In this document: positions 6,027 through 57,373 of the stretch, one piece after another
How positions within the stretch are numbered: the first letter of the stretch is position 1
Layout of the letters: every line of letters begins with the position of its first letter
Origin: Porticoccaceae bacterium
GTDB lineage: Bacteria > Pseudomonadota > Gammaproteobacteria > Pseudomonadales > Porticoccaceae
Direction: 5' to 3'
NCBI GenBank assembly: GCA_024644595.1
Contig: JAHEHL010000005.1
Location: 1 to 64,000 of the forward strand
DNA length: 64,000 nt
Program-made: the position numbers and the translations under genes
The notes under the pieces: generated by a model
Databases searched by the model: none
What the model was told of the DNA's origin: nothing
The model's input: only the letters and a program-made list of their open reading frames with translations

Positions 6027-6246
6027 TGCCGGTTCCTCTTGCGATCTGGGTGCTGAATCGTGTGGATAGCTATGTCTACGCTTGTAAATCGGCTCTGGAC
6101 CAGCTGGTAAGTGTGCTGATTATGACTTGGTTGAATAGATTATTTGTCGCCCGGCTGTACTTTTTTGTCGTCTACCAGGAAGCATCGATAACATGTTGAG
6201 AACAGACTGCCATCAAATTGGACTCTCACTAAATAGGTGTTTTGCT

Positions 6247-7923: not shown

Positions 7924-8727
7924 ATGGAAAACAATAACAGCGATATTTTATCAGTAGAGTTGATCAATGGTGTTTTGCGCCTGACTCTGAATGATCAAAA
8001 GCGTCGCAACGCACTTTCCGAGAACATGCTCGCGAAATTAGCAGATGTCTTTTCTCAATCTGCGCTGGACTCCGCCGTGCGGGTTATTGTGTTGGCGGCG
8101 AATGGCCCCGCTTTCTGTGCCGGTCATGACCTCAAAGAGGTCAGTGCGGCGCGAACCGCCGATGATGCGGGGCAGTTTTATTTTGAAACACTATTCGCAA
8201 CCTGTGCTTCGGTGATGCAGCTGATTGTGAATAACCCCAAGCCGGTCATCGCCGAAGTAGCTGGTGTGGCCACCGCCGCAGGTTGCCAATTGGTTGCTAG
8301 TTGCGATTTGGCCGTGGCAGCCGACAGCGCCCGTTTTGCTACACCCGGTGTCAATATCGGCCTGTTTTGTTCGACCCCTATGGTTGCACTGTCACGCAAC
8401 GTATCGAACAAACATGCGATGGAGTTGCTCCTGACTGGCGATATGATTGATGCTGCAAGAGCCGAGCAGATCGGTTTGATTAATCGCAGTGTCGACGCTG
8501 ACAAGTTGACCTCTGAGACCATGGCTCTGGCAGAAAAGATTGCCAGCAAATCGAGCATGACATTGGCGGTGGGCAAGCGTGCCTTTTATCTACAGGCAGA
8601 GATGTCACTGGCAGACGCCTATAACTATGCGTCAAAAGTGATGGTCGACAATATGCTTAAGCAGGATGCAGAAGAGGGTATTGCTGCCTTTGTTGAAAAG
8701 CGAACGCCCAACTGGCAGGACAAATAA
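7924..8727 (+). CDS. Crotonase-fold protein, ECHDC3-like, lacking both catalytic Glu
   Basis: 267 residues of the enoyl-CoA hydratase/isomerase fold. The oxyanion-hole signature AFCAGHDLKE (63-72) and the ATAAGCQLVASCDLAVA segment (about 116-132) are clear. At the two positions where hydratases carry catalytic glutamates (Glu121 and Glu141 in DmdD), this protein has Gln122 and Gly142. The segment GLFCSTPMVALSR is characteristic of the ECHDC3-like subgroup. It is therefore probably not an ordinary hydratase, and calling it DmdD would be risky; hydrolase, isomerase or lyase chemistry is possible. ATG at 7924 has GGGAGAG 6 bases upstream and gives the usual family length. The dmdB-like ligase follows after 28 bases. 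Confidence 0.75.
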   Translation: MENNNSDILSVELINGVLRLTLNDQKRRNALSENMLAKLADVFSQSALDSAVRVIVLAANGPAFCAGHDLKEVSAARTADDAGQFYFETLFATCASVMQLIVNNPKPVIAEVAGVATAAGCQLVASCDLAVAADSARFATPGVNIGLFCSTPMVALSRNVSNKHAMELLLTGDMIDAARAEQIGLINRSVDADKLTSETMALAEKIASKSSMTLAVGKRAFYLQAEMSLADAYNYASKVMVDNMLKQDAEEGIAAFVEKRTPNWQDK

Positions 8728-8755
8728 TTCTATAATCCTGGAGGCGGCTAACGCT

Positions 8756-10405
8756 ATGTCTAGCATTTACGATCGCGATCTCGAGCAGAACACAGCAAAT
8801 TATCAACCGCTTACGCCGCTTACTTTTCTCGAGCGCGCGGCTGCTGTATTTCCGGAACGCAGCGCCATCATCTATGGCGATCTGCACATTAATTATGCTG
8901 ACTTCTATCGCCGCTGCCGACAGCTCGCTTCGGCACTGCAGTCCCGTGGTATAGGTCGCGGTGACACTGTCTCGGTTATGTTGGCTAATACGCCAGCGAT
9001 GCTCGAAGTGCACTATGCCGTGCCCATGTGTGGTGCAGTGTTGCATGCGATGAACACCCGATTGGACGCAGCGGTGATCGGTTTTCAGCTAGATCATGCC
9101 GAGAGCAAGCTGCTGATAACCGACACCGGCTTCTCACCTATTATTGGCGCCGCGCTCGAGATGGCATCAGTTAAACCACAGGTTATCGACTATTTAGACC
9201 CTGTTGCATTGCAATCCGGAGACCGGCTCGGCCAAGAGGATTACGACGCAGTAGTCGACAGTGGAGACCCCGAGTTTGCCTGGTTGATGCCGCGTGATGA
9301 GTGGGATGCCATCAGTGTCAATTATACGTCTGGCACCACTGGTGACCCCAAAGGTGTGGTGTATCACCATCGCGGCGCCTGCCTCTTGGCTCAGGGTAAT
9401 GCGATTACTGCGTCGATCCAAAAACACGCAGTCTACCTCTGGACCCTGCCCATGTTCCACTGTAATGGCTGGTGTTTCCCCTGGACCATGTCAGCTGTAA
9501 GTGGCACCCATGTCTGTCTGCGGGAGGTCAGAGCAGAGGCTATCTGGGATGCTTTGCAGCGCCACAATATTACGCACCTGTGTGGTGCCCCAGTGGTTAT
9601 GTCGACCATTCTCAATGCCGAGCCCGAATACAAATGCGCATTGCCTCAACAGATTGAGTTTTTTACCGCTGCGGCGCCGCCGCCCCAGCGAGTGCTCGTC
9701 GAGATGCGAGAAGCCGGCTTCAATGTAACCCACCTCTATGGTCTTACTGAGGTCTATGGACCCGCAGTGGTCAATGACTGGAATCCGCAGTGGGAGAGCT
9801 TGCCAGCAGAACAACAGGCGACGCTCAAGGCGCGTCAGGGCGTGCGCTATCATGCACTGGAAGAACTCGACGTGCTTGACCCCGAGACCATGCAGCCTGT
9901 TCCTCGAGATGGCGAAACCATGGGTGAGGTGATGTTCCGCGGTAATGTGGTTATGAAGGGCTATCTAAAAAATAAATCGGCAACTGATGAGGCGTTTCTA
10001 GGTGGTTGGTTTCACTCCGGAGATCTGGGCGTGGTCTATCCGGACGGTTATATTCAGCTTAAAGACCGGTCCAAGGATATTATTATTTCCGGCGGAGAAA
10101 ACATCTCATCGATTGAAATTGAAGATGTGCTCTACAAGCATCCGCAGGTGGTTGCGGCTGCGGTGGTAGCGATGCCGCATGAGAAGTGGGGCGAAACACC
10201 CTGTGCCTTTGTTGAATTGGCGCCGCCTGACAGCGTAACCGAAGATGACCTAAAGGACTGGTGTAAGCAACATATGGCCAGCTTTAAAGTGCCGAAACAA
10301 TTTGTTATCGGCACAGTTGCTAAAACATCCACAGGCAAAGTCCAAAAGTTCTTGCTGCGCCAAGAGGCCGCGCGCCTTGCAGCGGCGGCCAACGAGAGCT
10401 ACTGA
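8756..10405 (+). CDS. dmdB: Acyl-CoA ligase, DmdB-like (MMPA-CoA ligase)
   Basis: 549 residues of the AMP-forming acyl-CoA synthetase family. Key motifs are the P-loop YTSGTTGDPKGV, the FHCNGW segment, the HLYGLTEVYGP motif, the GWFHSGDLG hinge region and the C-terminal catalytic Lys (KTSTGKVQK). The N-terminus (YQPLTPLTFLERAA) is that of the medium-chain/methylmercaptopropionate ligase group that includes DmdB. It would activate methylmercaptopropionate with CoA and ATP, the step after DmdA. The start at 8756 has GGAGG 11 bases upstream. Its stop overlaps the convergent DUF3604 gene by 7 bases. A general short/medium-chain acyl-CoA ligase is the alternative. Confidence 0.7.
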   Translation: MSSIYDRDLEQNTANYQPLTPLTFLERAAAVFPERSAIIYGDLHINYADFYRRCRQLASALQSRGIGRGDTVSVMLANTPAMLEVHYAVPMCGAVLHAMNTRLDAAVIGFQLDHAESKLLITDTGFSPIIGAALEMASVKPQVIDYLDPVALQSGDRLGQEDYDAVVDSGDPEFAWLMPRDEWDAISVNYTSGTTGDPKGVVYHHRGACLLAQGNAITASIQKHAVYLWTLPMFHCNGWCFPWTMSAVSGTHVCLREVRAEAIWDALQRHNITHLCGAPVVMSTILNAEPEYKCALPQQIEFFTAAAPPPQRVLVEMREAGFNVTHLYGLTEVYGPAVVNDWNPQWESLPAEQQATLKARQGVRYHALEELDVLDPETMQPVPRDGETMGEVMFRGNVVMKGYLKNKSATDEAFLGGWFHSGDLGVVYPDGYIQLKDRSKDIIISGGENISSIEIEDVLYKHPQVVAAAVVAMPHEKWGETPCAFVELAPPDSVTEDDLKDWCKQHMASFKVPKQFVIGTVAKTSTGKVQKFLLRQEAARLAAAANESY

Positions 10406-44084: not shown

Positions 44085-47000
44085 TCATTCCGCTAAATTA
44101 AACAGCTGTGTATTGCCCCCTCTGGCCACCAGATTATCGGTGCGTGTGCGCTCGCTTAAAAACCACAACAACCAGTGAAAGCTGTAATCATTATCCCGCT
44201 GCGGCCATTCAATCAGCGGGATAATACTGCCGCTGCGCGCAGCCATGGTCTGGCGCAGTGCTGAGCTGTCGCGGTCCAGGCTGTTGGCGACAACAGCTTC
44301 AATGCGATTGTCATGAATAATGGTCACAAGGCTATCGATCGATGCGATATGCAGCAGATTTTTGGGTAGACCGGCTTTAACCATTTTCTGCTTAAGAGTT
44401 TGTAGTATCGGTAACTGCTGGTCTGCTGCACAGATAACCAGTCCGCAGCCACACAGCAGGGCGCTGATCATCTGTTTTTCGGCGGCATCGATTGAATCCT
44501 GTTCGGTTATCACCAGTGTCACAACACCACGTCCCTGCAGGGACAGTTTATTGTCTTCACCGGTGGGTCCCGGCAGAGTGATTGGATTGGCCAGTTTTGC
44601 GCGGGCGATCCGCTCGATATTGTGCAACCAATTGGTCTGCGATGTGGCCTGGCCCAGCACAATCAGTCGCGCATCTATGGAGCGCGAGCGCCACTTTTGA
44701 TGTGCTTTGCTGGCGTCGGCCAGCGCGCTGTTGCAGCTAGCCCTGTCGCTGGTATCCGTCAGGCTCGTATTGGACAGGTCAAGCGAGAGCAAGGATGTTT
44801 CTGCATAAGCCGACAGGTGATACTCAGGTTCTGAACTGGGCTGTGAAAAACGCAGCAGATAGTTGGGTCCACCGGCTTTGGGGCCTGTGCCCGAGAGGCC
44901 GCGGCCGCCGAACGGGTTTACCCCGACTACCGCGCCGACCATATTGCGGTTGATATAGGTATTGCCGGCAATGGTGTTGCGGAACACGGTCTGGGCAAAG
45001 GCCTCGATGCGACTGTGAACGCCCAGAGTTAAGCCAAAGCCAGTCTGGTTAATTTGCTCAATCACATTATTGAGCTGATCCGAGTCGTAGCGAATAACAT
45101 GCAAAATCGGGCCAAAGACCTCTTCGGTCAACTGACCCAGCGAGGTGATTTCAAACACATGAGGGGCGACAAAAGTCCCTTGGTCACAGCGGCTGTCGAG
45201 TTCAACTTTGGCGACCAGTTTGGCTTCGCGTTGCATGTGCTCAATATGGGTTTGCAGTTCGGCCTGGGCGGCGCGGTCGATAACCGGTCCAAGGTCACTG
45301 CTGAGCAGGCGCGGATCGCCCACCTTTAATGATGCCATTGCGCCACGCAACATATGCAGCACATTGTCGGCAATATCAGACTGGATAAACAGCACGCGTA
45401 GTGCCGAGCACCGCTGCCCAGCGCTCTGGAAGGCTGAAGCAATGACATCATCGATCACCTGTTCTGGCAGTGCGGTTGAGTCCACCACCATGCAGTTTTG
45501 TCCGCCGGTCTCGGCGATAAACGGAATCGGAGAGCCGGGACGCAGGGCCAACTGCTGATTGATATGTTGAGCGGTGTCGGTGGAGCCGGTAAAGGCAATG
45601 CCGGCAATTCGGCTGTCGCGCAATAGTAGATTGCCGATCTGCGAACCGCTGCCGAGCAGGACGTGCAGGGCACAGCCGGGAACTCCGGCCTCATAAAATA
45701 GCTGGGCAGCTGCCACGGCGATAGCCGGCGTCTGTCCGGCGGGTTTGGCGACTACAGTGTTGCCGGCCGCCAGTGCCGCTGCGATCTGGCCGACGGTAAT
45801 GGCCAGTGGGAAGTTCCATGGGCTGATACAGAACCAGACACCGCGACCCTGAAAGTGTGTCAGCGAGCGAGCCTGGAGTGCGTAGTAGCGACAGAAATCG
45901 ATTGCCTCACGTACCTCCGAGACCCCATCGTTAAGCGTGCGGCCGCCCTCAAGGCTAATCAACCCGATCAGTTCACCCATGTCCCGTTCCATAAGATCGG
46001 CAACTTTATCGAGAATATTGGCGCGCGCGGCGGGGCCGAGAGTATTCCAAGCGGCAAATGCCTGATCGGCGGATGCCACGGCGCGAATAATATCGTCATT
46101 GCTGACTCGCGATGTATGACCAATGATTTGGCGTTGATCGGCGGGGCTGTAGCTCGGCTGCAGCTCGCCGGCAATCGCTTCACCATCGATAATCGGGCGT
46201 GTAATTAAGTCGCTTATGTCGGTTGCAGCTGCGTCAACCTGTTTTAGCAGGGCAGTCGCTTCGAGCGGCGAATCGAGGTCGATACCGCGAGCATTTTTTC
46301 GCCGAGGCAACGTATGTGGGTTTGAGGCCGCCGGTTCTCTATGGTGGGCTTCGTCGGCGCCGATAAACAGATCGGCAGGTACAGGAATAGCTTTGTGTCG
46401 ATAGGGGAATACCCTGGAAACCTGCTCGCGTGTGTCATCGAATAGCGCTTCCACCGGCGTCTGGCTGTCGAGAAAGCGATTGACGAATGAACTGTTGGCA
46501 CCATTTTCCAGTAGTCGTCGCACCAAGTAGGGCAGCAGGTCACGGTGATTGCCAATTGGGGCATAGACACGCACCGGAATTTGGCGATCAGCAAAGCATT
46601 TGCGCAAATTGGCATAGAGAATATGGCCCATGCCGTGCAGGCGTTGAAATTCAAATTCGCGTTCGCGGGCCAGGGTTAGAATCATCGTCGCAGTGTACGC
46701 ATTGTGGGTGGCAAACTGAGGGAAGACCGCATCCTGCGCATCGAGCAGGATACCCGCGCAGTGTTGGTAGCAGAGGTCAGTGTTGGCTTTGCGGGTAAAG
46801 ACCGGATAGCTGGGCAGACCCAGCTCCTGAGCATGCTTTATCTCGGCATCCCAATAGGCGCCCTTGACCAGTCTGACCATTAGCCTGCGACCGGTTTCTC
46901 GCGCCAGACCGATTAGCCATTTAGCGGTATCCGGCGCGCGCTTTTGATAGGCCTGCAAGACAAAGCCCAGCCCTTGCCAGCCACTCAGGTCGGGGTCATG

Positions 47001-47924
47001 GGCCAGTGCGGCAAAGATATCCAGCGAGATATCCAGACGGTAGGACTCCTCCGCGTCGATAGAGAGACCGATATCGTACTGTTGAGCTTGCAGGCAGAGC
47101 TGCTTGATGCGCGGCAACAACTCTGCCATCACCAAATCATGCTGGGCATAGTAGTAGCGTGGATGCAGTGCCGAGAGTTTGACTGAGATACCGTTGTTGT
47201 TATACACCTTGCTATCGTGGTCAGTTGAAAGTGTATTGCAGTGGCTACCAATGCTGTCGATGGCGCTGGCATAAGCGGTCAGATAGTTGCGCGCATCTTC
47301 CTCGGTGCGCGCTCCTTCACCGAGCATATCAAATGAAAAACGCGTGGCGCTATCGTTGTGTTTGGTGCCGCGCTTGAGGCCCTCTGCAATAGAGCGACCG
47401 AGCACATATTGGCCACCCATGATTTTCATCGCCTGCATCACCGCCGCGCGAATCACGGGTTCGCCCAGAGTTGCGGTCAGTCGTTTAATCCAGTTGTCGG
47501 TATCCTCGGTAATTTCGGAATCGAGGCTGACCATCTGGCCGGTCAGCATCAGCCCCCAGGTTGAGGCATTGACAAACATGGATCTGGATTTGCCGCGGTG
47601 GACATTCCATTTTCCGGCTTGAATTTTTTCAGCGATCAGGCGATCGGCAGTCAGCGCGTCGGGCACTCTCAGCAGCGCTTCTGCGAGACACATCAAGGCA
47701 ACACCCTCGGCATTGGAAAGGCCAAACTCGAGCAAAAAGGCATCCAGCGTGCCGCTGCTGTTTTTGTCTGCGCGGCACTGCACAACTAGATCTCGAGCAT
47801 CCTTGAGAATGGTCTCGCGAGCCTCAGCCGAGAGCGGATTACTGTGCAGCAATCCGGCAACATTCTGGTGCTCGTCTTGATGGGTTGTCTGACGAATTTT
47901 TTTGCGTAGTGCAGTCTGATCCAT
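44085..47924 (-). CDS. putA: Bifunctional proline dehydrogenase / P5C dehydrogenase PutA
   Basis: 1279 residues. The N-terminal half holds the FAD proline dehydrogenase barrel (RLVKGAYWDAEIK, then HGMGHILY and RVYAPIGNH). The C-terminal half is the aldehyde dehydrogenase that oxidises glutamate semialdehyde to glutamate, with ETGGQN and the catalytic Cys in GQRCSALRV, plus a C-terminal ALDH-like extension. The ribbon-helix-helix domain that makes E. coli PutA a repressor is missing: the protein begins directly with the helical arm. Regulation is probably by the divergent Lrp-type gene at 48097. The enzyme degrades proline to glutamate at the inner membrane face. Confidence 0.95.
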   Translation of the reverse strand: MDQTALRKKIRQTTHQDEHQNVAGLLHSNPLSAEARETILKDARDLVVQCRADKNSSGTLDAFLLEFGLSNAEGVALMCLAEALLRVPDALTADRLIAEKIQAGKWNVHRGKSRSMFVNASTWGLMLTGQMVSLDSEITEDTDNWIKRLTATLGEPVIRAAVMQAMKIMGGQYVLGRSIAEGLKRGTKHNDSATRFSFDMLGEGARTEEDARNYLTAYASAIDSIGSHCNTLSTDHDSKVYNNNGISVKLSALHPRYYYAQHDLVMAELLPRIKQLCLQAQQYDIGLSIDAEESYRLDISLDIFAALAHDPDLSGWQGLGFVLQAYQKRAPDTAKWLIGLARETGRRLMVRLVKGAYWDAEIKHAQELGLPSYPVFTRKANTDLCYQHCAGILLDAQDAVFPQFATHNAYTATMILTLAREREFEFQRLHGMGHILYANLRKCFADRQIPVRVYAPIGNHRDLLPYLVRRLLENGANSSFVNRFLDSQTPVEALFDDTREQVSRVFPYRHKAIPVPADLFIGADEAHHREPAASNPHTLPRRKNARGIDLDSPLEATALLKQVDAAATDISDLITRPIIDGEAIAGELQPSYSPADQRQIIGHTSRVSNDDIIRAVASADQAFAAWNTLGPAARANILDKVADLMERDMGELIGLISLEGGRTLNDGVSEVREAIDFCRYYALQARSLTHFQGRGVWFCISPWNFPLAITVGQIAAALAAGNTVVAKPAGQTPAIAVAAAQLFYEAGVPGCALHVLLGSGSQIGNLLLRDSRIAGIAFTGSTDTAQHINQQLALRPGSPIPFIAETGGQNCMVVDSTALPEQVIDDVIASAFQSAGQRCSALRVLFIQSDIADNVLHMLRGAMASLKVGDPRLLSSDLGPVIDRAAQAELQTHIEHMQREAKLVAKVELDSRCDQGTFVAPHVFEITSLGQLTEEVFGPILHVIRYDSDQLNNVIEQINQTGFGLTLGVHSRIEAFAQTVFRNTIAGNTYINRNMVGAVVGVNPFGGRGLSGTGPKAGGPNYLLRFSQPSSEPEYHLSAYAETSLLSLDLSNTSLTDTSDRASCNSALADASKAHQKWRSRSIDARLIVLGQATSQTNWLHNIERIARAKLANPITLPGPTGEDNKLSLQGRGVVTLVITEQDSIDAAEKQMISALLCGCGLVICAADQQLPILQTLKQKMVKAGLPKNLLHIASIDSLVTIIHDNRIEAVVANSLDRDSSALRQTMAARSGSIIPLIEWPQRDNDYSFHWLLWFLSERTRTDNLVARGGNTQLFNLAE

Positions 47925-48096: not shown

Positions 48097-48576
48097 ATGA
48101 TGAAAACCGTGACGCAGCTAGATCGAACTGACCGCCGCATCCTCGATATCCTCCAGCGCAATGGGCGCATCGCCAACGTAGACCTGGCCAAGCAGGTCAA
48201 CCTGACACCAACACCTTGTCTCGAACGCGTCAAACGTCTAGAGAAAGAGGGTTTTATCACGCAATATGTGGCGCTGCTGGATCCGGTAAAAGCCAATGCA
48301 GCACTCTGCGCTTATATTGAAGTGCAGCTGGATAGCACCACCACAGATGCAATTCGGTCGTTTAATCAGAAGATGCTAGAGCTGGAAGAGGTGTTGGAGT
48401 GCCAGATGGTAGCCGGTGGGTTTGATTATCTGATCAAGATTCGGGTCGCCGATATGCAGCACTACCAACGTTTTCTGGGGGGCAAATTATCCACCATTAA
48501 AGGTATTAGCCAGACCCATACTTATGTGGTGATCGAGGATGTTAAATCGGAGACTGCCATCAAGATCAATGGCTGA
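48097..48576 (+). CDS. Lrp/AsnC-family regulator, probable putA activator
   Basis: 159 residues with an N-terminal HTH (DRTDRRILDILQRNGRI, then VDLAKQVNLTPTPCLERV) and a C-terminal RAM amino-acid-sensing domain with the glycine-rich MVAGGFDYLIKI. It is closely Lrp-like in length. It is divergent from putA, as PutR-type proline regulators are in alphaproteobacteria. It probably senses an amino acid such as proline and controls putA (inference from position). GGGG precedes the ATG. Confidence 0.9.
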   Translation: MMKTVTQLDRTDRRILDILQRNGRIANVDLAKQVNLTPTPCLERVKRLEKEGFITQYVALLDPVKANAALCAYIEVQLDSTTTDAIRSFNQKMLELEEVLECQMVAGGFDYLIKIRVADMQHYQRFLGGKLSTIKGISQTHTYVVIEDVKSETAIKING

Positions 48577-48601: not shown

Positions 48602-49690
48602 CTATAGGTAAATCCGCGGCACGCGGGCCGGCATCCGAGTCAGTAACTCATAGCCAATCGTTCCGCAGTGATCAGCGACCTCATTTACCGGCAAGTCAGC
48701 ACCCCACAGAACCACCTTGTCGCCGATGCTAGGCGTGGTAAGGTCGGTGACATCGACAGTAATCATATCCATCGATACGCGCCCCGCTAGCGGGCAGGGC
48801 ATGCCATTGATCAGCACCGGCGTGCCATTGGGTGCGTGGCGTGGATAGCCATCGCCGTAGCCGACGCTAACGGTGGCTATCACAGAGTCGCGTTCAGCGG
48901 TCCAACTGGCCGTGTAGCCAACTGAGTCACCAGCAGGAACCGTGCGCAGGGAGATAATCGCCGATTCAAAACACATTACCGGCTTGAGCTGGTCGGCATT
49001 GGGCTGAGGCTCAGAGAATGGCGAGGCGCCATAGAGCATATAACCGGGTCGCTGCCAATCGCGCCGGGTTTGGGGCCAGCCGAGAACCGCTGCTGAGTTG
49101 GCGAGACTTTTTAAGCTGCTATCCAGTCCGGCATCGAGAAGGGTTTTTTCGAACACGGCGACCTGTTGCGCCGTGCGATCGCTGGCCAAGTCGTCGGCAC
49201 AGGCAAAATGTGAGGCAACAACGATTTTGTCGCTCACATTGCGGCTGTTTTGCAGTGCCTGATAGACCTCGGCAATATCGACGGGCTGAAAACCCAGCCG
49301 GTGCATGCCACTGTCGAGACCCAGCCAGAGCGTTAGCGGGTGAGGCAGATCGGCGTCGATAATGGCCTGCTTTTGTGGATGATTTTCCACCATCAGCCAA
49401 AAATTGTGGCGCGCGGCGAGAGTGAGTTCGCTTTTTTCAAAAATGCCTTCAAGCAGCAGAATCGGTTGTTTGATGCCGGCCGCACGCAGCTCCAGGGCCT
49501 CTTCGATACAGGCGACCCCAAATGCCGGTGCACTATCGGCCAGCGCCTTGGCGACCTCTACTGCGCCGTGGCCATAGGCATTAGCTTTAACCATAGGCAT
49601 GGTCTGCGAGCTGGGTGCGAGCGACTGTGCCAACTGGAAATTGTGGCGCAGGGCGTTGAGATCAATAACCGCTCGGGTAGGTCGTGACAT
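48602..49690 (-). CDS. alr: Alanine racemase
   Basis: 362 residues. The PLP lysine is Lys35 (MVKANAYGHG) and the second catalytic base is the Tyr in DSVGYTASW; the dimer motif VSVGYGDGYPR is intact. It interconverts L- and D-alanine for peptidoglycan or for catabolism. It is the last gene of a reverse-strand run dealing with D-amino acids and 5-oxoproline. A second alanine racemase elsewhere is possible, which would make this the catabolic one. Confidence 0.94.
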   Translation of the reverse strand: MSRPTRAVIDLNALRHNFQLAQSLAPSSQTMPMVKANAYGHGAVEVAKALADSAPAFGVACIEEALELRAAGIKQPILLLEGIFEKSELTLAARHNFWLMVENHPQKQAIIDADLPHPLTLWLGLDSGMHRLGFQPVDIAEVYQALQNSRNVSDKIVVASHFACADDLASDRTAQQVAVFEKTLLDAGLDSSLKSLANSAAVLGWPQTRRDWQRPGYMLYGASPFSEPQPNADQLKPVMCFESAIISLRTVPAGDSVGYTASWTAERDSVIATVSVGYGDGYPRHAPNGTPVLINGMPCPLAGRVSMDMITVDVTDLTTPSIGDKVVLWGADLPVNEVADHCGTIGYELLTRMPARVPRIYL

Positions 49691-49757
49691 TGTGCAGCTC
49701 GTTTATCTGTCGAATTTTAGTTTTATAATTACGTTTTGAAATCCAAGTGCTCGAATG

Positions 49758-50615
49758 TTAATAGTCGAACTTGCCAGCGCTGTAAAGCGTCTGCGCAGCC
49801 AGCCACACCTCGCCCACCTCACCATTACCCACTGCTTTGCCGTCAATTTGCGTCACCGGAGCGACCTCTTTTGACGAACTGGTAATCCACACTTCATCCG
49901 CATTCAGCACTTCATCCATGCTGACACTGCGTTCTTCAACCGCAATGCTGCCGTCGCGGCGCAGCACATCGAGCAGAATATGGCGCGTGATACCGGGCAG
50001 CAGCTGGTTATCCAGTGGTGGTGTAATCACCTTGCCATCTTTGACAATAAAGGCATTGCAGGCACTGGCTTCGGTCAATTCATTGTTGGCGTTAAACAGG
50101 AGCGTCTCATCGTGACCGCGTTCATAGCCGTGCTGAAAGTGCAGCACATTGCCAAGCAGTGCAGTGGATTTGATATGGCAGCGTTCCCAGCGCAGATCGC
50201 GTGTGGTGGACACCTTGTATGCTTTTGCCAGAGCTTTATCGGCGACCGGGGGCGGAGCGATTTCAAAGGCATAGGCAAAAACGGTCGGCGCGATATTGTC
50301 TGGAAAAGCGTGAAAGCGCTTGCTGTCTGCACCGCGGCTGACATGCAGATAGATGCCCAGATTGCCGGCACCATTTTCGTTGATCAGGCGGTTGCACAGC
50401 TCGGCCCAGTTGTCCTCGCTCCAGTCGAGTTTGATGCCTACGGCTGCAAGACCGTTTTGCATGCGCGCGATATGCGGGCCAAAGCCAACCATCTTGCCGG
50501 CGTAGGAGGGCACCACTTCGTAGATGCCATCGCCGAATAAAAACCCGCGATCCATGGGAGATATTTTGGCCTGCTCGATTGGCATATAGCTGCCATCCAG
50601 ATACGCGATACTCAT
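49758..50615 (-). CDS. dat: D-amino-acid transaminase (class IV)
   Basis: 285 residues of the fold-type IV PLP aminotransferases. The Schiff-base lysine is Lys149 (RCHIKSTALLGN), and FGDGIYEVVP and LTEASACNAF mark the active site. The segment YEVVPSYAG, the length and the alr gene next door point to D-alanine aminotransferase rather than IlvE. It would exchange amino groups between D-alanine and 2-oxoglutarate, linking D-Ala to D-Glu. The gap to the DUF4392 gene upstream is 167 bases, so it may have its own promoter. Confidence 0.86.
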   Translation of the reverse strand: MSIAYLDGSYMPIEQAKISPMDRGFLFGDGIYEVVPSYAGKMVGFGPHIARMQNGLAAVGIKLDWSEDNWAELCNRLINENGAGNLGIYLHVSRGADSKRFHAFPDNIAPTVFAYAFEIAPPPVADKALAKAYKVSTTRDLRWERCHIKSTALLGNVLHFQHGYERGHDETLLFNANNELTEASACNAFIVKDGKVITPPLDNQLLPGITRHILLDVLRRDGSIAVEERSVSMDEVLNADEVWITSSSKEVAPVTQIDGKAVGNGEVGEVWLAAQTLYSAGKFDY

Positions 50616-50782
50616 AGTGATGCCTTGTTATTTGTAATTGATGGCCGTCTTAAAACGGTCAAAAATGGTAGCAGTGGGGTCCTGTGCGCGCAAAGTAAAT
50701 TCACTGTATTCTCAGCCTGTTTAAGGGCCTTTGCGCGAAAATATGGGGTTATTTTGTGATGTAGCGAAAAATTTACCTGCAT

Positions 50783-51631
50783 TTAGAGGTAACCGCCTAA
50801 TTTTCTCAGATCACAAATAAGCGCCTCCGTAACCTCCGCACTCAGACCATCTTCGGTAAGCGTGTTCTCTCGGGTTACACCATCGACGCTGCCGCGTTCA
50901 GAGAGATAGTTCAACACCGCCAGGTTATCCCAATCGAGCAGCAGATCAGTGCCATTAAACGCGGATAGCATGGCAATGAGCCCATGGGCCGCCCAATTGG
51001 AGACATCGGCAATCAGCAGTTCATCGCAACCGGTTGCGGCCGGGATAATGTTGAGCTCTGTCAGAGCGTCACTCACATTGCCCATACCGATTTCATTGCC
51101 GCCGTCGCCAATCGCGATAGTGGGGCAGCGTGCGAGTGTTAAAAAGTAATCAAAGCTGGCACAGGCATGGCTGATGTCTTCGCCGCGCATATTATAGTAG
51201 TGACCATCTGCGGCCATGCCTGGTCGTTCGATTGAGATCACCAGCGAAGGCTGGTAATCATCGAGTGCGATCTGCGCTTCGCGGGCGCTGGTCTTGGGTT
51301 GGCCAACGCTGATGTTATGCACGCGGTAGTCACCGGCAATCACATTCGCAAGTGGTGCGCCGCAGACTAGAATCGGCTCCGCACCGAGCCTTTCAAGAGT
51401 CCGATAGAGGGCGATCGCACCCACTGGTCCATCAGTCTCGAAGCTGCCGGCAACTGGAAAACCAGTGCCGATCAATATGCGCGAGCCCGATGATTGCAGT
51501 GCTTGGTGAACGAGTTTCGCTGCGCGCAAGAAATAGCCGGGCTCCAGCGCGGCCTGCAGTGTTCTCATTCCGCGAGGATTTCGTGAAACAAGGCGGTTTT
51601 CAATCGCTTTGCTGAGGCTAACGTCAGTCAT
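50783..51631 (-). CDS. DUF4392 protein, D-glutamate cyclase-like
   Basis: 282 residues matching DUF4392, the C-terminal part of mammalian D-glutamate cyclase (DGLUCY). Visible motifs are GTGFPVAGSFETDGP near residue 55, VSIERPG, YYNMRG and the strongly conserved IAIGDGGNEIGMGN. The mammalian enzyme turns D-glutamate into 5-oxo-D-proline. The gene overlaps the pxpC end by 8 bases, which couples it to the 5-oxoprolinase subunits that open 5-oxoproline to glutamate. The function is therefore well supported by family and context, though activity of this single domain is not shown here. Confidence 0.8.
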   Translation of the reverse strand: MTDVSLSKAIENRLVSRNPRGMRTLQAALEPGYFLRAAKLVHQALQSSGSRILIGTGFPVAGSFETDGPVGAIALYRTLERLGAEPILVCGAPLANVIAGDYRVHNISVGQPKTSAREAQIALDDYQPSLVISIERPGMAADGHYYNMRGEDISHACASFDYFLTLARCPTIAIGDGGNEIGMGNVSDALTELNIIPAATGCDELLIADVSNWAAHGLIAMLSAFNGTDLLLDWDNLAVLNYLSERGSVDGVTRENTLTEDGLSAEVTEALICDLRKLGGYL

Positions 51632-52601
51632 TGGTTACAATCTCTTCGGGCGTGCAGCGTTCAAAATATTGTTGATCTAACATCAGGGCATTGTGTGCCT
51701 GCTCTATACTGATGGCCTCAAAATTCACTGTTGCGCCGGGTAATAGCTGCGCGAGTTTGGAAATATCCAACGACAGGACTGACCCCAACTTTGGATAACC
51801 GCCAATGGTCTGACGATCATTTAGCAACACAATCGGTTGGCCGTCGGCAGGGACCTGAATGGCACCGAGACAGATACCCTCAGAGAGAATGCCATCGGCA
51901 CTCGGCGCGATGGCGGTGCCCTTGAGGCGATACCCCATACGGTCACTGCGGTCTGTAACCTGATAGTCGCTAGTGAAAAATAGTTGTTTTTGTAAATCGC
52001 TGAACAGTGCTTGCTGATATCCCAGGATAACCCGCAGTAGAGCACGATTAGTGCTGTAATCAGGGCGCAGGTCAGCGGCTAGCGACAGAGGTGTGGTCGA
52101 GCGCTGACTCTCGCAGGGAAGCATATCTCCTGCTTGAAGGGGACTGCCATCTCCGTGCAGGCCGCCAAGGCTCTCTCGTGGCACTGTCGAGACGCTGTTA
52201 AATCGGGGTTCTATTTGAAAGCCACCGGCCACTGCCAGATAGATTCGGCTACCAGAGGTAGCAAAGCCCAGCTCAATGCGAGCTCCAGTTTGAATAGAAT
52301 ATGAACGCCAAAGCTCACATGCATGTCCGTTTATTGTCAGCGGCGCGCTGGCACCGGTCACTGCAATAGTGGTATCAACAGTGGCCTCTAAGACCAAGCC
52401 ACCTATAGTGACCTCGACTGCCGCGCAGCCTTGGGGGTTAGCGCAGAGGCGGTTGGCCCAGCGAAAGGCATTACTGTCGAGCGGACCCCCATTCGTTAAG
52501 CCGATGCCATGGAGACCAAAGCGACCGGCATCTTGAATCAGGCTAAAAATTCCGGGGTTGATTACCTGCAGCCCGCTCGAGGCAGTGAGTTGACTGCTCA
52601 T
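51624..52601 (-). CDS. pxpC: 5-oxoprolinase subunit PxpC (carboxyltransferase-like)
   Basis: 325 residues of the biotin-dependent carboxyltransferase subtype 2 family (also called KipA or YbgK). It shows GIFSLIQDAGRFGLHG near the N-terminus, NGGPLDSNAFRWAN and DRMGYRLKG, and the late LNDRQTIGGYPKLG. With PxpA and PxpB it hydrolyses 5-oxoproline to glutamate at the cost of ATP. It starts within the pxpB end (4-base overlap). Confidence 0.93.
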   Translation of the reverse strand: MSSQLTASSGLQVINPGIFSLIQDAGRFGLHGIGLTNGGPLDSNAFRWANRLCANPQGCAAVEVTIGGLVLEATVDTTIAVTGASAPLTINGHACELWRSYSIQTGARIELGFATSGSRIYLAVAGGFQIEPRFNSVSTVPRESLGGLHGDGSPLQAGDMLPCESQRSTTPLSLAADLRPDYSTNRALLRVILGYQQALFSDLQKQLFFTSDYQVTDRSDRMGYRLKGTAIAPSADGILSEGICLGAIQVPADGQPIVLLNDRQTIGGYPKLGSVLSLDISKLAQLLPGATVNFEAISIEQAHNALMLDQQYFERCTPEEIVTND

Positions 52602-53299
52602 AATACGCCACCCATCGCCACAAAGGTGTCTCTATCAATAGCTTTAAAGCGCACGCGATCACCCACCTGAACCGGCATACTCGGTTCCGCTGCAGGATCA
52701 AACATCCGTTCTGGGCAAAGCCCAATCAAATTCCAGCCGCCGGGCGATTGCGCTGGATAGACCGCAGTTTGACGGTCGGCTATCGCAACCGCACCGCGCG
52801 GTACTTTCTGGCGTGGTGTCGCCAGACGCGGAGCAGCGATACGTGGATCAACCTCACCCAGATAGGCAAAGCCCGGGGCAAATCCAATCGCATAGACGCG
52901 ATAATCTGTCTGTTGATGAATAGTGACAACCTCATCGATACTGAGTCCGGCATTATCGGCCAGCTGCTGCAAGTCAGGACCTGATTCGGTGCCGTAGTAG
53001 ACCGGCAGTGTAATCAGCTTACCCTTGCTGGATTGGCTCGGATCGACTGTGTGACGGTTGTCCAGAGCCCGACGAATGGCATTGCGCACGGCGAAATGAT
53101 CTGTTCTAAAAGGATCGTAAATCACCAGCAGCGAGGCGTAAGAGGGCACAAGATCAATTAGTGAATCGCCCAGAGCCTGACGCAGCTTTTCGGCGCTTGA
53201 GGCCACGGCCGAGGCGACAGCATCACTGGGCGCGTCGCCAAAATAGACGATCAGAGCGTTCTCTCCGGCCACGGAGATTGTCTGCATTGCTGAGTTCAT
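52598..53299 (-). CDS. pxpB: 5-oxoprolinase subunit PxpB
   Basis: 233 residues of the carboxyltransferase subtype 1 family (KipI, YbgJ). Typical stretches are NALIVYFGD near the start, LVPSYASLLVIYDP and the motif FAPGFAYLGEVDPRIAAPR followed by GGWNLIG. It acts with PxpC in the ATP-dependent opening of 5-oxoproline. Overlaps of 4 bases at both ends tie it to pxpA and pxpC. Confidence 0.93.
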   Translation of the reverse strand: MNSAMQTISVAGENALIVYFGDAPSDAVASAVASSAEKLRQALGDSLIDLVPSYASLLVIYDPFRTDHFAVRNAIRRALDNRHTVDPSQSSKGKLITLPVYYGTESGPDLQQLADNAGLSIDEVVTIHQQTDYRVYAIGFAPGFAYLGEVDPRIAAPRLATPRQKVPRGAVAIADRQTAVYPAQSPGGWNLIGLCPERMFDPAAEPSMPVQVGDRVRFKAIDRDTFVAMGGVL

Positions 53300-54030
53300 G
53301 AATTAATTAACTGACGAATGTCCTGGATAGCGCGCACGCCTTCCATATTGTCACCGTGTACACACAGTGAGTCAGCCTGCAGCTCCAGGCGATGGCCGCT
53401 GACTGTGGTCACGCAACCTTCAGCTTGAAGTTGTTGAACCTGCGCGAGCATTTTCTCGCGATTGTGCACCGCACCCTCTTTAGCGCGGGAGAGCAGGGCA
53501 CCATTGTCGTCATAACAACGGTCGGCAAAAGCCTCAAAAATAAGCTCGATGCCAAACATTTTCGCCTCTTCCCGGTGAGTCTCGGCGTCCGGTGTGGCCT
53601 GTAACATAAACGCCAGCGGTAGGTGGGATTCAGCGATGGCCTCCATAATTGCACTGCGAATATGACCATTGGCCATCATGTCGTTGTACAGAGCGCCATG
53701 GGGTTTAACATAGTGGATATTGAGCCCGAGGTTTTGCGCCATACCGGCGAGCGCAGCAATCTGGTATTGGACGATGGCGATAATTTCGACGGGCGGCAAA
53801 TTCATCGAGCGGCGGCCAAAACCAGCCAGATCAGGATAGCTTGGGTGGGCGCCGACCATGACATTATGGCGCTTGGCCGAGAGCAGTGTCTTTTTCATGA
53901 CCACCGGATCGCCCGCGTGAAAGCCGCAGGCGATATTGGCCTGGTCGATAAAGGGCATAACCTCGTCATCGAGACCCATAGTCCACGCGCCGAAGCTTTC
54001 GCCGAGATCACAATTTAAACGTAATGCCAT
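53296..54030 (-). CDS. pxpA: 5-oxoprolinase subunit PxpA (LamB/YcsF)
   Basis: 244 residues. The N-terminus LNCDLGESFG, the segment NIACGFHAGDPVVM and the motif VKPHGALYNDM are diagnostic of PxpA. It is part of the 5-oxoprolinase PxpABC in the cytoplasm. It is the first gene of the tight pxpA-pxpB-pxpC-DUF4392 set. Upstream, 129 bases with a decayed repeat separate it from the UPF0317 gene. Confidence 0.94.
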   Translation of the reverse strand: MALRLNCDLGESFGAWTMGLDDEVMPFIDQANIACGFHAGDPVVMKKTLLSAKRHNVMVGAHPSYPDLAGFGRRSMNLPPVEIIAIVQYQIAALAGMAQNLGLNIHYVKPHGALYNDMMANGHIRSAIMEAIAESHLPLAFMLQATPDAETHREEAKMFGIELIFEAFADRCYDDNGALLSRAKEGAVHNREKMLAQVQQLQAEGCVTTVSGHRLELQADSLCVHGDNMEGVRAIQDIRQLINS

Positions 54031-54060
54031 ATTGTCTTCCTCTAAGTTTTACAGACAGTT

Positions 54061-54114
54061 GTTCCGAGCGCAGTTGAGGGATCCCTCTACTCACTTCGTT
54101 CCGCCGGGATGACA
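54061..54114. repeat. Degenerate copy of the GTCATCCCGA-type repeat
   Basis: The stretch between pxpA and the UPF0317 gene contains GTTCCGAGCGCAG near its start and CCGGGATGACA near its end, which resemble the arms and centre of the element at 40873-40937. The first arm has decayed. It is a short dispersed repeat, not coding. Confidence 0.5.
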
Positions 54115-54159
54115 GAGTCGCATGAACCCTCGGTCAGCATTGCAGAACCGGAAACCCGT

Positions 54160-54951
54160 CTAGCCGACTTCCACCGCAAGGTCACTATTCTTTAAGTCAG
54201 TGACCAACATACAGCCAGGACTATGGGTTATACAAAACGGCAACTTTGCTTGTTCCAGTGCCACCTGTGGCGTTACGCCGCAGGCCCAAAATAGCGGCTG
54301 CTCGTTCTCTTTAATTGTTACTGCATCGCCAAAGTCTGGTCGATTGAGATTGCCAATGCCAATTGCCTCCGGGCTGCCATAGTGAATCGGTTCGCCATGC
54401 ACTGAGGGGAAACGCTTGCAGATTTCCGCAGCACGCTGCGCCTGCTGGGGAGCAAAGGGGCGCATGCTGACCACCATCTTGCCACTAAAAGGCCCTGCTG
54501 GTGTGCAGTCGATATTGGTTCGATACATTGGCACATTGACGGCTTCGCTGACATTGCGCACCTCGAGACCATCGGCGATCAGGGCCTCTTCAAAGGAGAA
54601 TGAGCAACCCAGTAGAAACGCCACCAGATCACTTCGCCAGTAGTCGCTGATATCGCCGACCTCGGCAACAACGTCGCCATGCTGAAAGACTTTATAGCTT
54701 GGAATATCAGTGCGAATATCCAGGTCCGCGCCAAGCGCTGGAACTCTGAAATCACCGACGTTGGATTTTGCGATCAGTGGGCAGGGTTTGGGGTTGGCTT
54801 CGCAAAACTTCAGAAAGTCCGCGGCGGCATCGGCGGGCAAAATAACCAGATTACATTGCACATAGCCGTTGCAAAAACCTGAGGTATTACCACGGTGCTC
54901 TGCACTGCGAATGCGCTGGCGCAGTTGTTGTGGGGTTACTGTTTCCTGCAT
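54160..54951 (-). CDS. UPF0317/DUF1445 protein (YcsI, D-glutamate cyclase family)
   Basis: 263 residues of the YcsI/UPF0317 family, to which the N-terminal half of mammalian D-glutamate cyclase belongs. Signatures include [36 protein letters not shown] and [15 protein letters not shown] at 54951 is preferred (GGAG 6 bases upstream) to the frame start at 55005. In Bacillus subtilis ycsI also sits with the pxpABC homologues. Here it lies upstream of pxpA on the same strand and probably works on D-glutamate or 5-oxoproline; some databases call the family hydro-lyase. Confidence 0.85.
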
Positions 54952-55047
54952 GACCGGCTCCAAATAATGGTACGAGATTCTAGCAGAGCTTTTCGAGCAA
55001 CTCACCAGCTCTCGTGAGCAACTAACCCGTAGGTGGTAGCCCGCAAT

Positions 55048-55614
55048 TTAGCGCCAGCGACGCGCCCAGGCATCCAGTACCCGTTCAGCGTACCAGTACT
55101 GCCCATAGCTGCCGTTGTAGCGGGCTAGCGCATCGGCGAGACGGCCCTTTTCGCGGTCGAGATAGTATTTAAGAATCGTGCAGCCGTAGCGCAAATTGGT
55201 TTGGGTATTGATCAAGTTATCCTCCGGTCTGCCGATCTCGTGCTTCCAAAACGGCATAACTTGCATTATTCCCTGAGCGCCCGCAGCGGACACGGCGTAG
55301 CGGTCAAAGCCGCTCTCCACCTCAATTAGAGCCAGTACAATTTCCGGTGACAGGCCAGCCCGGGTCGCTTCGCTGTGAATCAGTGTTAAAAGATTAACCC
55401 GTGTTTCAGGGTCAGAAATCAGCGGCGCAAGGGCGGGCTCCTTGGTCATCAGCCAGACTTCGGCATCGTACTGGTCGGTGAAGCTATCCGCATCGGTGGC
55501 TGCGCGTTTAAGCAGTGATAACAGCGTCGGGTCGGCATCAGATTGTTGCGCATGGGTCAGTGGAGCATTGACAAGCGCGCAGATAAGAGCGCAGAGAAAA
55601 ACGGGGAGGAGCAT
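55048..55614 (-). CDS. Exported SLT-type lytic transglycosylase
   Basis: About 188 residues: a signal peptide or anchor (MLLPVFLCALICALV, cleavage near AQQ) and a Slt/goose-lysozyme-type domain with the catalytic Glu in ALIEVESGFD, then AQGIMQVMPFW and ARYNGSYGQYWY. It cleaves the glycan strands of peptidoglycan in the periplasm. The start is uncertain: longer frames run into the proS end, and ATG at 55614 is chosen because the signal peptide begins there. Its place beside D-amino-acid catabolic genes fits cell-wall turnover, but proS adjacency may be chance. Confidence 0.85.
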   Translation of the reverse strand: MLLPVFLCALICALVNAPLTHAQQSDADPTLLSLLKRAATDADSFTDQYDAEVWLMTKEPALAPLISDPETRVNLLTLIHSEATRAGLSPEIVLALIEVESGFDRYAVSAAGAQGIMQVMPFWKHEIGRPEDNLINTQTNLRYGCTILKYYLDREKGRLADALARYNGSYGQYWYAERVLDAWARRWR

Positions 55615-55648
55615 GACCACAGTACGCGACTGTGGCCATGTTGTGGGG

Positions 55649-57373
55649 TTATTTACGTACCGTCTCGGCAATAAATTCATCCAGCTTATCCATTGCTATA
55701 TGTTGGTTTTCCGGTTCGCGGCGGTTGCGATATTCGACCGTGCCATCGGCCAGTCCGCGATCACCAATTACAATCCGGTGCGGAATACCGATCAGCTCTA
55801 TATCGGCGAGCATACCGCCCAATCGGGCTTTCGCCTCATCCATAAACAGCACTTCATAGCCGGCGCTGACCAGCTTGTTATAGAGTGCTTCGCAGGTTTC
55901 TGCAACCAGCTCTGACTTGTGCATATTGATCGGTACAATAGCAATCTGGAAAGGCGCGATCGCCTCGGGCCAGATAATACCGTTGTCATCGTGGTTTTGT
56001 TCAATCGCTGCGGCAACGATACGGCTTACCCCTATACCATAGCAGCCCATCGACATAACCTGCTCTTTACCGTTTTCATCAAGCACCGTTGCATTCATTG
56101 CTTCGCTGTATTTCGTACCGAGCTGAAAAATATGTCCGACTTCTATGCCGCGTTTGATTTCCAGTACACCTTTGCCGTCGGGGCTGATGTCACCGGCAAC
56201 CACGTTGCGGATATCGGCAATGGTGTATTCGCCACAGTCGCGCGGCCAGTTCACACCGGTAAGGTGGTAGCCATCGCGATTGGCACCACAGACAAAATCA
56301 GTTAGCTGCGCCGCGCTGGGGTCGACCAGGATCGGCAGGTTGAGATTAACTGGACCAATCGAACCGGGCGAGCAGTTCAATGTCGATTTAATCTGCTCCT
56401 CGGTGGCAAAGGTGATTTCGCTGTTTAGCCTCAGAGCGCGCTGCGCCTTCACTTCATTGAGCTCATGGTCACCGCGCAACATCAGGCCGTAAAGTTGCGT
56501 TTTGCCCTCATCATCTTCGCCGCTAACAATCAGCGCTTTCAGGGTTTTGTCAGCGCTGGTGCCGACAAACTCGCAGAGATCATTAATCGTGTGCACACCG
56601 GGTGTCGCCAGGTCGATCATCTCGGCGCTGCCAGGAGCCACTGTTTCAGTTGCTGTCAGGGCAGTGGCTTTTTCAATATTGGCGGCGTAGTCACTCTCGG
56701 TTGAGAACACAATTGCATCTTCACCAGAATCGGCGAGGACGTGGAATTCGTGAGAGTGGCTGCCACCGATACTGCCGGTGTCGGCGAGCACTGCGCGATA
56801 GATCAGGCCGGTGCGGTCAAAAATCGCCGAGTAGGTCTGATACATCAGATCGTAGGTTTGTTGCAGAGAAGCCCCATCGAGATGAAATGAATAGGCATCT
56901 TTCATGCAGAATTCACGCGTGCGCATCACGCCAAAACGGGGGCGGCGCTCATCGCGAAACTTGGTTTGAATCTGGTAGAAATTGGCCGGCAGCTGCTTAT
57001 AGCTGCGAATTTCATTGCGAATAATGTCAGTCACTACCTCTTCGTGAGTGGGTCCGAGACAAAACTCACGGTCGTGGCGATCTTTAATTCGCAGCAGCTC
57101 GGGACCAAATTGTCCCCAGCGCCCCGATTCTTCCCACAGATCAGCGGGCTGAACCACCGGCATCATAATTTCCAGCGCGCCGGATTTATCCATCTCTTCA
57201 CGAACAATGTTTTCGACCTTGCGAAACACACGTAACCCGATCGGCAGCCAGGAGTAGAGTCCGGAGGCTACTTTGCGAATCATTCCGGCTCGCAGCATCA
57301 GTTTGTGGCTGATCACTTCTGCATCGGCAGGGGATTCTTTCTTTGTTGAAATCAAATATTGGCTGGCGCGCAT
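55649..57373 (-). CDS. proS: Prolyl-tRNA synthetase
   Basis: 574 residues, the bacterial-type ProRS with an inserted editing domain (length close to E. coli, 572). Motif 2 is [18 protein letters not shown] and motif 3 lies in [12 protein letters not shown]; the editing region includes [13 protein letters not shown]. It charges tRNA-Pro in the cytoplasm. The start is ATG at 57373, 92 bases from the divergent HIT gene. Confidence 0.97.

Follow-up and report, generated by a model that had tools for sequence, protein, structure and literature searches.

Mammalian D-glutamate cyclase (DGLUCY, also C14orf159 or 9030617O03Rik) is composed of two domains, DUF1445/UPF0317 and DUF4392. In mice, the enzyme forms 5-oxo-D-proline from D-glutamate, and the knockout accumulates D-glutamate (excerpts of PMC5339696). 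As far as found, the enzymatic name of both Pfam families, PF07286 and PF14336, traces to this mammalian work, and no statement in the literature was found that assigns the chemistry to one of the two domains or explains the presence of both. For gut bacteria, six split homologues of the human enzyme and none of full length were described (excerpts of PMC12547972). Here, we analyzed a stretch of 64,000 nt from a Porticoccaceae bacterium (GenBank assembly GCA_024644595.1, contig JAHEHL010000005.1, positions 1 to 64,000; "the window"). The genome has 2.38 Mb, is 98.9% complete and lies near the SAR92 clade. In the window, the relatives of the two mammalian halves are separate genes on either side of pxpABC, which encode the three subunits of 5-oxoprolinase. 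UPF0317-pxpABC-DUF4392 is a real unit, and by analogy with characterized relatives we lean towards reading it as a D-glutamate disposal module, which would convert D-glutamate one-way via 5-oxoproline to glutamate.

Gene order, co-occurrence and fusion

The cluster contains seven genes on the minus strand (48602-54951), which are listed in the order of transcription:

54160..54951, minus strand: UPF0317/DUF1445 (PF07286, 'D-Glu_cyclase', 'putative hydro-lyase'), Pfam 217.7 bits, NCBIfam NF003969 398.9 bits
53296..54030, minus strand: pxpA (LamB/YcsF family), 5-oxoprolinase subunit A, PF03746 295.9 bits, NF003816 342.2 bits (above cut-off)
52598..53299, minus strand: pxpB, 5-oxoprolinase subunit B, PF02682 235.1 bits, TIGR00370 164.1 bits (above cut-off)
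51624..52601, minus strand: pxpC, 5-oxoprolinase subunit C, PF02626 288.5 bits, TIGR00724 264.9 bits (above cut-off)
50783..51631, minus strand: DUF4392 (PF14336, GLUCM-like C-terminal domain), Pfam 240.1 bits
49758..50615, minus strand: dat, class IV (D-amino-acid) transaminase, PF01063 176.6 bits
48602..49690, minus strand: alr, alanine racemase, PF01168/PF00842 217/152.2 bits, TIGR00492 362.2 bits (cut-off 168)

A first-pass annotation had placed these seven genes on one strand, with overlaps of 4-8 bases from pxpA to DUF4392. Both points were confirmed: each gene matches the expected Pfam family, and the overlaps are 4 bases for pxpA/pxpB (53296-53299), 4 bases for pxpB/pxpC (52598-52601) and 8 bases for pxpC/DUF4392 (51624-51631). 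The other neighbors are separated by 129 bases (UPF0317-pxpA), 167 bases (DUF4392-dat) and 67 bases (dat-alr). The start of UPF0317 had been called at a GTG (55005); a start at 54951, an in-frame ATG, is in better agreement with the family. PF07286 and PF14336 both exceed their gathering cut-offs on separate genes, UPF0317 being a relative of the first and DUF4392 of the second half of the mammalian enzyme. No match to the DUF4392 protein was found among the NCBIfam models. PxpC reached 218.5 bits with the equivalog model NF045499, which requires 500, and by its sequence it belongs to a divergent subfamily, the putative function of which is taken from family and neighborhood rather than from the equivalog. 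Dat also stayed below the cut-off of TIGR01121 (221.8 versus 277.45 bits), and its top matches in the PDB are D-amino acid aminotransferases (best 4m0j, E 8e-53). A scan of the cluster for promoters and terminators gave counts within the range of shuffled sequences.

To quantify the conservation of the gene order, a named genome collection was scanned by tblastn with a 16-sequence DUF4392 alignment (A1). This yielded at least 517 relatives, the titles of which, where informative, are those of gammaproteobacteria. The locus counts rest on the best 80 of these, among which the closest named DUF4392 is that of HTCC2207 (73% identity). As the 80 loci were chosen for likeness to the window, the rates of conserved order apply to this subfamily and not to DUF4392 overall. 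Loci were regarded as edge-free when at least 4.5 kb upstream and at least 2 kb downstream were retained, which left 63 of the 80. UPF0317, pxpA, pxpB, pxpC and DUF4392 were found in that order within 4.5 kb in 54 of the 63, and thus the conserved neighborhood that had been named as a check was found. As dozens of other genera share this order, it is not due to chance. Three of the nine exceptions carry UPF0317 5-6 kb upstream (L115, L154, L162), five have no UPF0317 within the 8 kb examined (L139, L158, L160, L164, L167), and the remaining one (L157) lacks pxpA. Dat lies downstream of DUF4392 in 55 and alr in 26 of the 63 edge-free loci. When all 80 loci were counted, including those cut by an edge, the same-strand neighbors were pxpC (77), pxpB (73), pxpA (72), Dat (70), UPF0317 (67) and alr (37, three of them weak and upstream matches).

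The phylogenetic distribution of PF14336 is uneven. It was matched in 26 of 35 genomes of the window's genus, in 3 of 21 other genomes of the order and in 1 of 229 genomes of a sample of the class, that one being the window's own. There was no match in 14 control genomes, Bacillus subtilis included, and a single-sequence search found no relative on viral contigs.

The two cyclase halves occur together even where they are not neighbors. PF07286 was found in all 50 carrier genomes searched (50 of the 80), and five of these carriers (G311, G321, G323, G325, G328) keep UPF0317 outside the cluster. Within the genus, UPF0317 is present in 22 of the 26 genomes that have DUF4392. The four exceptions (G229, G234, G241, G244) carry DUF4392 at most 1.7 kb from a contig end and three of them also lack pxpC, so the missing UPF0317 is likely an assembly gap. 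Conversely, PF07286 was found in none of the 9 DUF4392-negative genomes of the genus. Seven of these retain pxpABC, dat and alr in place (L073-L076, L087, L183, L184), dat being broken in G245, and the other two (G259 and G260, 74 and 85% complete) have neither pxpC nor a strong dat match. Many independent co-losses were rejected as an explanation, because on the Dat tree the six cyclase-free rows of the genus group together as a single clade (support 88/80). Therefore, the Fisher p of 5e-8 for the co-loss is overstated, and UPF0317 and DUF4392 were probably lost in one event at two separate spots. In total, two contrasts are independent; both point as expected, but their number is too small for a test. 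The proposal that the two mammalian domains are present as separate genes around pxpABC was thus borne out by the coordinates, the conserved neighborhood and the order in the edge-free loci.

A survey for gene fusions had also been suggested, and it revealed fusions that tie the cyclase side to 5-oxoprolinase. In 10 of the 26 DUF4392-bearing genomes of the genus, pxpC and DUF4392 are joined in one open frame (L008, L012, L013, L017, L018, L020, L021, L023, L025 and the gapped L022), which spans 590-621 amino acids where complete; L132 and L151, two named records, show the same fusion. Eleven of the fused rows group in a single clade (100/100) from which L025 is separate, and a single origin was rejected (p of the approximately unbiased test 0.008). 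The fusion has probably arisen twice independently in SAR92-clade relatives; the second origin rests on one assembly, as L025 stems from a single metagenome-assembled genome (G232, same contig as L095). To judge from sequence, nothing else here points as strongly as this PxpC-DUF4392 fusion to a possible common route of PxpBC and the DUF4392 product. No UPF0317-DUF4392 fusion was flagged in the 80 loci, and an 817-amino-acid open frame at the UPF0317 of L119 contained no second Pfam domain.

The surroundings of the unit in the window include the following genes:

48097..48576, plus strand: Lrp/AsnC-type regulator (PF01037/PF13412), divergent from putA and convergent with alr, outside the core unit
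44085-47924: putA, downstream of alr beyond the Lrp/AsnC gene
55048-55680: lytic transglycosylase with SLT domain, upstream of UPF0317

proS is also located upstream of UPF0317. PutA and the transglycosylase had been counted as part of the setting; they are indeed nearby, but they are not members of the core unit. In the 80 loci they adjoin the cluster only in SAR92/Porticoccaceae. In five loci, mostly of Amphritea (L128, L131, L137, L138, L152), a pyridoxal phosphate (PLP) enzyme is encoded inside the cluster between DUF4392 and Dat on the opposite strand. It is close to the L-cysteine desulfhydrase Cds1 (NF052478, 547 of 600 bits in L152) and adjoins an AsnC-type regulator.

Sources of D-glutamate

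Supply of D-glutamate by a D-amino-acid aminotransferase is established, and MurD2/MurL is a known alternative route (excerpts of PMC8788868). The presence of the glutamate racemase MurI was assessed with TIGR00067 in place of PF01177. Weak PF01177 matches in the genus, which at first resembled glutamate racemases, were set aside; only that of the window genome was identified individually (C6), and it is panB. TIGR00067 was above its cut-off in none of the 35 genus genomes, several of which are incomplete: the window genome has no match, and G235 and G247 match far below the cut-off. The window genome encodes one protein of the Asp/Glu racemase family, which scores below the asp_race cut-off. 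Among the 21 other genomes of the order, MurI was above cut-off in 15. A Dat match of at least 39% identity, a limit chosen after the data had been seen, was present in 6 of 6 order genomes without MurI and in 2 of 15 with MurI (p 5e-4; outside the genus), and in these other families Dat and MurI appear to exclude each other.

Because MurI was not detected in the genus and the cyclase-free relatives keep dat-alr, Alr and Dat are likely the wall supply of D-glutamate there, and the cyclase-free genomes themselves suggest that the two enzymes make wall D-glutamate. At the level of the class, a loss of MurI accompanying the cluster was rejected. MurI was above cut-off in 13 of 50 carriers and in 70 of 229 class genomes (p 0.61; the TIGR00067 search may miss some MurI), and therefore the presence of the cluster does not indicate that MurI has been lost. 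Dat was matched at E 1e-30 or better in all 50 carriers; in five of them (G285, G291, G294, G296, G304), all without MurI above cut-off, the identity is only 31-35%. The first-pass annotation had proposed that Dat and Alr salvage D-alanine into D-glutamate. This is not supported for the genus, where MurI is not detected and seven cyclase-free genomes keep dat-alr, but it could apply to the 13 carriers that have MurI and a clustered Dat.

Two loci of the genus, L024 (G239) and L076 (G245), contain a broken dat, and in G239 DUF4392 is broken as well; both genomes lack MurI above cut-off. Unless the breaks are errors of assembly, these genomes would need another source of D-glutamate; G239 has extra Dat-like pieces.

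A candidate route for D-glutamate and its alternatives

In the proposed route, Alr would convert L-alanine to D-alanine and Dat would form D-glutamate from D-alanine and 2-oxoglutarate. In the SAR92 clade, D-glutamate is probably made next door to the module in this way, because no MurI was detected in the genus. The DUF4392/UPF0317 pair would cyclize D-glutamate to 5-oxoproline, and PxpABC would open the lactam with ATP to glutamate, by which the loss of D-glutamate would become one-way. Gene identity, gene order, co-occurrence of the halves, fusion, metal ligands and the missing detection of MurI are seen directly, and each reaction is assigned by likeness to relatives. Of the complete flow from D-alanine via D-glutamate and 5-oxoproline to glutamate that had been drawn at the outset, the linkage of cyclase and oxoprolinase gained support from order and fusion, whereas the salvage feed by Dat and Alr did not.

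The DUF4392 model (predicted local distance difference test, pLDDT, 96.2) has only one clear fold match, TON_0340 of Thermococcus onnurineus (E 4e-23; by sequence against the PDB E 3e-33). The six acidic metal ligands of TON_0340 named in excerpts of PMC5132392 are present as E65, D67, E135, D176, E180 and D261 and are invariant in 53 sequences. The UPF0317 model (pLDDT 91.5) matches members of its own family, 2pif and 3db9, with 41-46% identity. Beyond the family, a weak match to the NrpR-like MJ0159/3nek was found (E 1.6e-5, TM score 0.4), which in a predicted model is a lead, not a mechanism. Three cysteines of UPF0317 (Cys59, Cys118 and Cys226, in the numbering of window:54163-54957:-) are invariant in 47 sequences.

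The first-pass annotation had envisaged a racemase-free or stereo-tolerant conversion. If PxpABC opened 5-oxo-D-proline to D-glutamate, cyclization and opening would form a futile loop that burns ATP, and therefore a useful pathway needs an inversion. Among 17 flanking families present in at least 5 of the 80 loci, of which 9 + 6 representatives were scanned by domain and two are proS and putA, there was no recurrent racemase or uptake system. These families include LysR regulators (26 of 80 loci), Lrp/AsnC regulators (12 of 80), a PLP enzyme, an AcrB-type efflux pump and unrelated genes; ten further neighbors added one EamA transporter family in two loci. A D-specific PxpABC clade was also considered and rejected, as carriers were not cleanly separated in the trees of PxpA (36 rows) and PxpC (40 rows), both of which were poorly resolved. 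In our view, the D-to-L inversion most likely sits in one of the two cyclase-family proteins. Because two conserved proteins accompany one known reaction and no recurrent racemase flanks them, one of them might be a cofactor-free 5-oxoproline epimerase, which would make the cluster an ATP-driven one-way glutamate deracemase; we regard this as a bold and rather unlikely proposal. DUF4392 would then cyclize D-glutamate, UPF0317 would invert 5-oxo-D-proline to 5-oxo-L-proline, and PxpABC would open the latter. Of the two, UPF0317 is favored as the epimerase: it has three invariant cysteines and occurs with pxpABC where DUF4392 is missing, as in Azospirillum, G281, G275 and, with ycsI taken as the UPF0317 gene, B. 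subtilis. Racemases with two catalytic cysteines exist. The 5-oxo-D-proline product of the mouse enzyme speaks against a strong epimerase in the mammalian protein. If the epimerase proposal were true, the same misreading would apply to the second domain of the human enzyme.

Several variant arrangements show which genes stay together. Two plasmid records of Pseudoalteromonas (L067 5612-10712, L068 5614-10712) have the order GH3 (glycoside hydrolase family 3), UPF0317, pxpA, DUF4392, Dat. The length of the GH3 protein is covered by a match to B. subtilis NagZ/YbbD (E 9e-114), an enzyme with a role in peptidoglycan recycling. In G265, pxpA-DUF4392-dat-alr are together, UPF0317 and pxpBC are at two other places, and the gene adjoining that pxpBC is no pxpA. 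Because of these arrangements, PxpA, DUF4392 and Dat may stay together where PxpBC do not. UPF0317 with pxpABC but without DUF4392 was found in Azospirillum, G281 and G275. A single run of genes on the Azospirillum oryzae plasmid (L180, 1-10792) comprises those of an ATP-binding cassette (ABC) transporter as well as UPF0317, a binding-protein gene, pxpB and pxpC, a gene for a chemoreceptor, and pxpA. The transporter is of the amino-acid type, and the gene content suggests that a compound of the 5-oxoproline type may be taken up and act as a chemoattractant. G281 (L078, 192-15141) contains putA, an Lrp-type gene, UPF0317, a tripartite ATP-independent periplasmic (TRAP) transporter (DctP/Q/M), an amidase, a flavin mononucleotide (FMN) oxidoreductase and pxpABC; thus, putA is near UPF0317 and pxpABC also in this genome.

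A number of observations weigh against the disposal route. The product of the mouse enzyme is the D form, and an L-specific PxpABC would leave the chemistry incomplete unless an inversion takes place. TON_0340 was described as an Mn-dependent phosphatase (excerpts of PMC5132392), and therefore the chemistry of the DUF4392 family is not settled. Distant DUF4392 genes on five alphaproteobacterial plasmids have no pxp gene within the 12.8-16.9 kb examined, and thus the family, and with it the NCBI label 'glutamate cyclase domain-containing protein', probably spans several functions. These paralogues (among them L069, S. meliloti pRM41A 7932-8999; L178, S. sojae 5827-6960 and 8255-9265; L179, Alisedimentitalea 6001-7014) are next to sugar, amino-acid-transport or aldehyde-dehydrogenase genes, and on the S. 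meliloti plasmid UPF0317 is about 4 kb from DUF4392. The Pseudoalteromonas clusters contain pxpA alone of the three oxoprolinase genes, and their GH3 is below the NCBIfam cut-off for beta-N-acetylhexosaminidase (190.6 of 207). In addition, carriers do not stand out by lacking MurI, Dat is clustered in the 13 MurI-positive carriers as well, and the co-loss in the genus has the weight of probably a single event.

Three alternatives assign the cluster another purpose. It might serve salvage, with Dat channelling D-amino acids that are released by wall turnover or present in sea water into D-glutamate, which is then cyclized and reopened, so that Dat and Alr would be catabolic. The location of Dat, which follows DUF4392 in 55 of the 63 edge-free loci, its clustering in the 13 genomes with MurI, where wall supply by Dat is unneeded, and the NagZ/YbbD-like GH3 that precedes the Pseudoalteromonas cluster would fit. 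However, MurI is above cut-off in 0 of 35 genus genomes, cyclase-free lineages retain dat-alr, and Dat and MurI are mutually exclusive elsewhere in the order (6/6 versus 2/15, p 5e-4, with the post hoc limit), and we therefore consider salvage possible but doubtful. The same lack of detected MurI in the genus, where 26 of 35 genomes have the cluster, would agree with a regulatory valve, which prevents an excess of D-glutamate from the reversible Dat in MurI-free bacteria instead of feeding growth. The LysR and Lrp/AsnC families that recur next to the cluster (in 26 and 12 of the 80 loci, respectively) and the absence of an uptake system among the flanking families in at least 5 of 80 loci point in this direction as well, but carriers lack MurI no more often than the class (p 0.61) and nine genus genomes do without the cyclases, which leaves the valve a tentative idea.

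The third alternative is damage control with no D-glutamate pathway. PxpABC would clear spontaneous 5-oxo-L-proline, and UPF0317 and DUF4392 would act on another metabolite, e.g. a phosphorylated or D-configured damage product. This would agree with the occurrence of UPF0317 with pxpABC and transporters but without DUF4392 in Azospirillum and G281, and with pxpABC in G275, and it is consistent with the general role of PxpABC in clearing 5-oxoproline (Niehaus 2017, cited in excerpts of PMC10448178) and with the phosphatase activity of TON_0340 (excerpts of PMC5132392). The Dat-like gene next door, the product of which is expected to make or use D-glutamate, speaks against such a scheme, which we judge to be quite unlikely.

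Comparison with described systems

The domains of the mammalian enzyme are fused to each other, whereas here they are separate genes flanking pxpABC, and in SAR92 relatives DUF4392 is instead fused to PxpC. Humans excrete 5-oxo-D-proline (excerpts of PMC5339696); the window cluster instead has an ATP-dependent oxoprolinase attached. Because the halves are separate genes, DUF4392 is fused to an oxoprolinase subunit and UPF0317 is present in every carrier tested, the division of labor between the cyclase domains becomes directly testable in simple enzymes.

The ycsF-ycsG-ycsI-kip operon of B. subtilis encodes the same three PxpABC subunits, together with ycsI and an Mn importer (excerpts of PMC10448178). 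PF14336, which is present in the window cluster, was not matched in B. subtilis. A PF07286 match is present in that genome, and we take ycsI to be the UPF0317 gene; the operon presumably contains neither dat nor alr. TON_0340 (PDB 4dwz, 5gl2) shares the DUF4392 fold and the six acidic metal ligands with the window protein. It was reported as an Mn-dependent phosphatase with no substrate assigned, and DUF1445 was said to be absent from archaea (excerpts of PMC5132392). In the open-licence full-text literature, no description of a bacterial route from D-glutamate via 5-oxoproline to glutamate was found, which is weak evidence of novelty, and the main text of a study on Pxp of Corynebacterium glutamicum does not mention 5-oxo-D-proline or D-glutamate.

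The MurI, Dat and MurD2/MurL routes likewise concern the D/L fate of glutamate for peptidoglycan. In contrast to these, the present module, if the disposal reading is right, would run from D- to L-glutamate one way via 5-oxoproline and at the cost of ATP. The genes of the cluster are neighbors in many marine bacteria, which would then have an ATP-driven path from D-glutamate to usable glutamate that does not depend on glutamate racemase and would bear on the D-amino-acid pool of the ocean.

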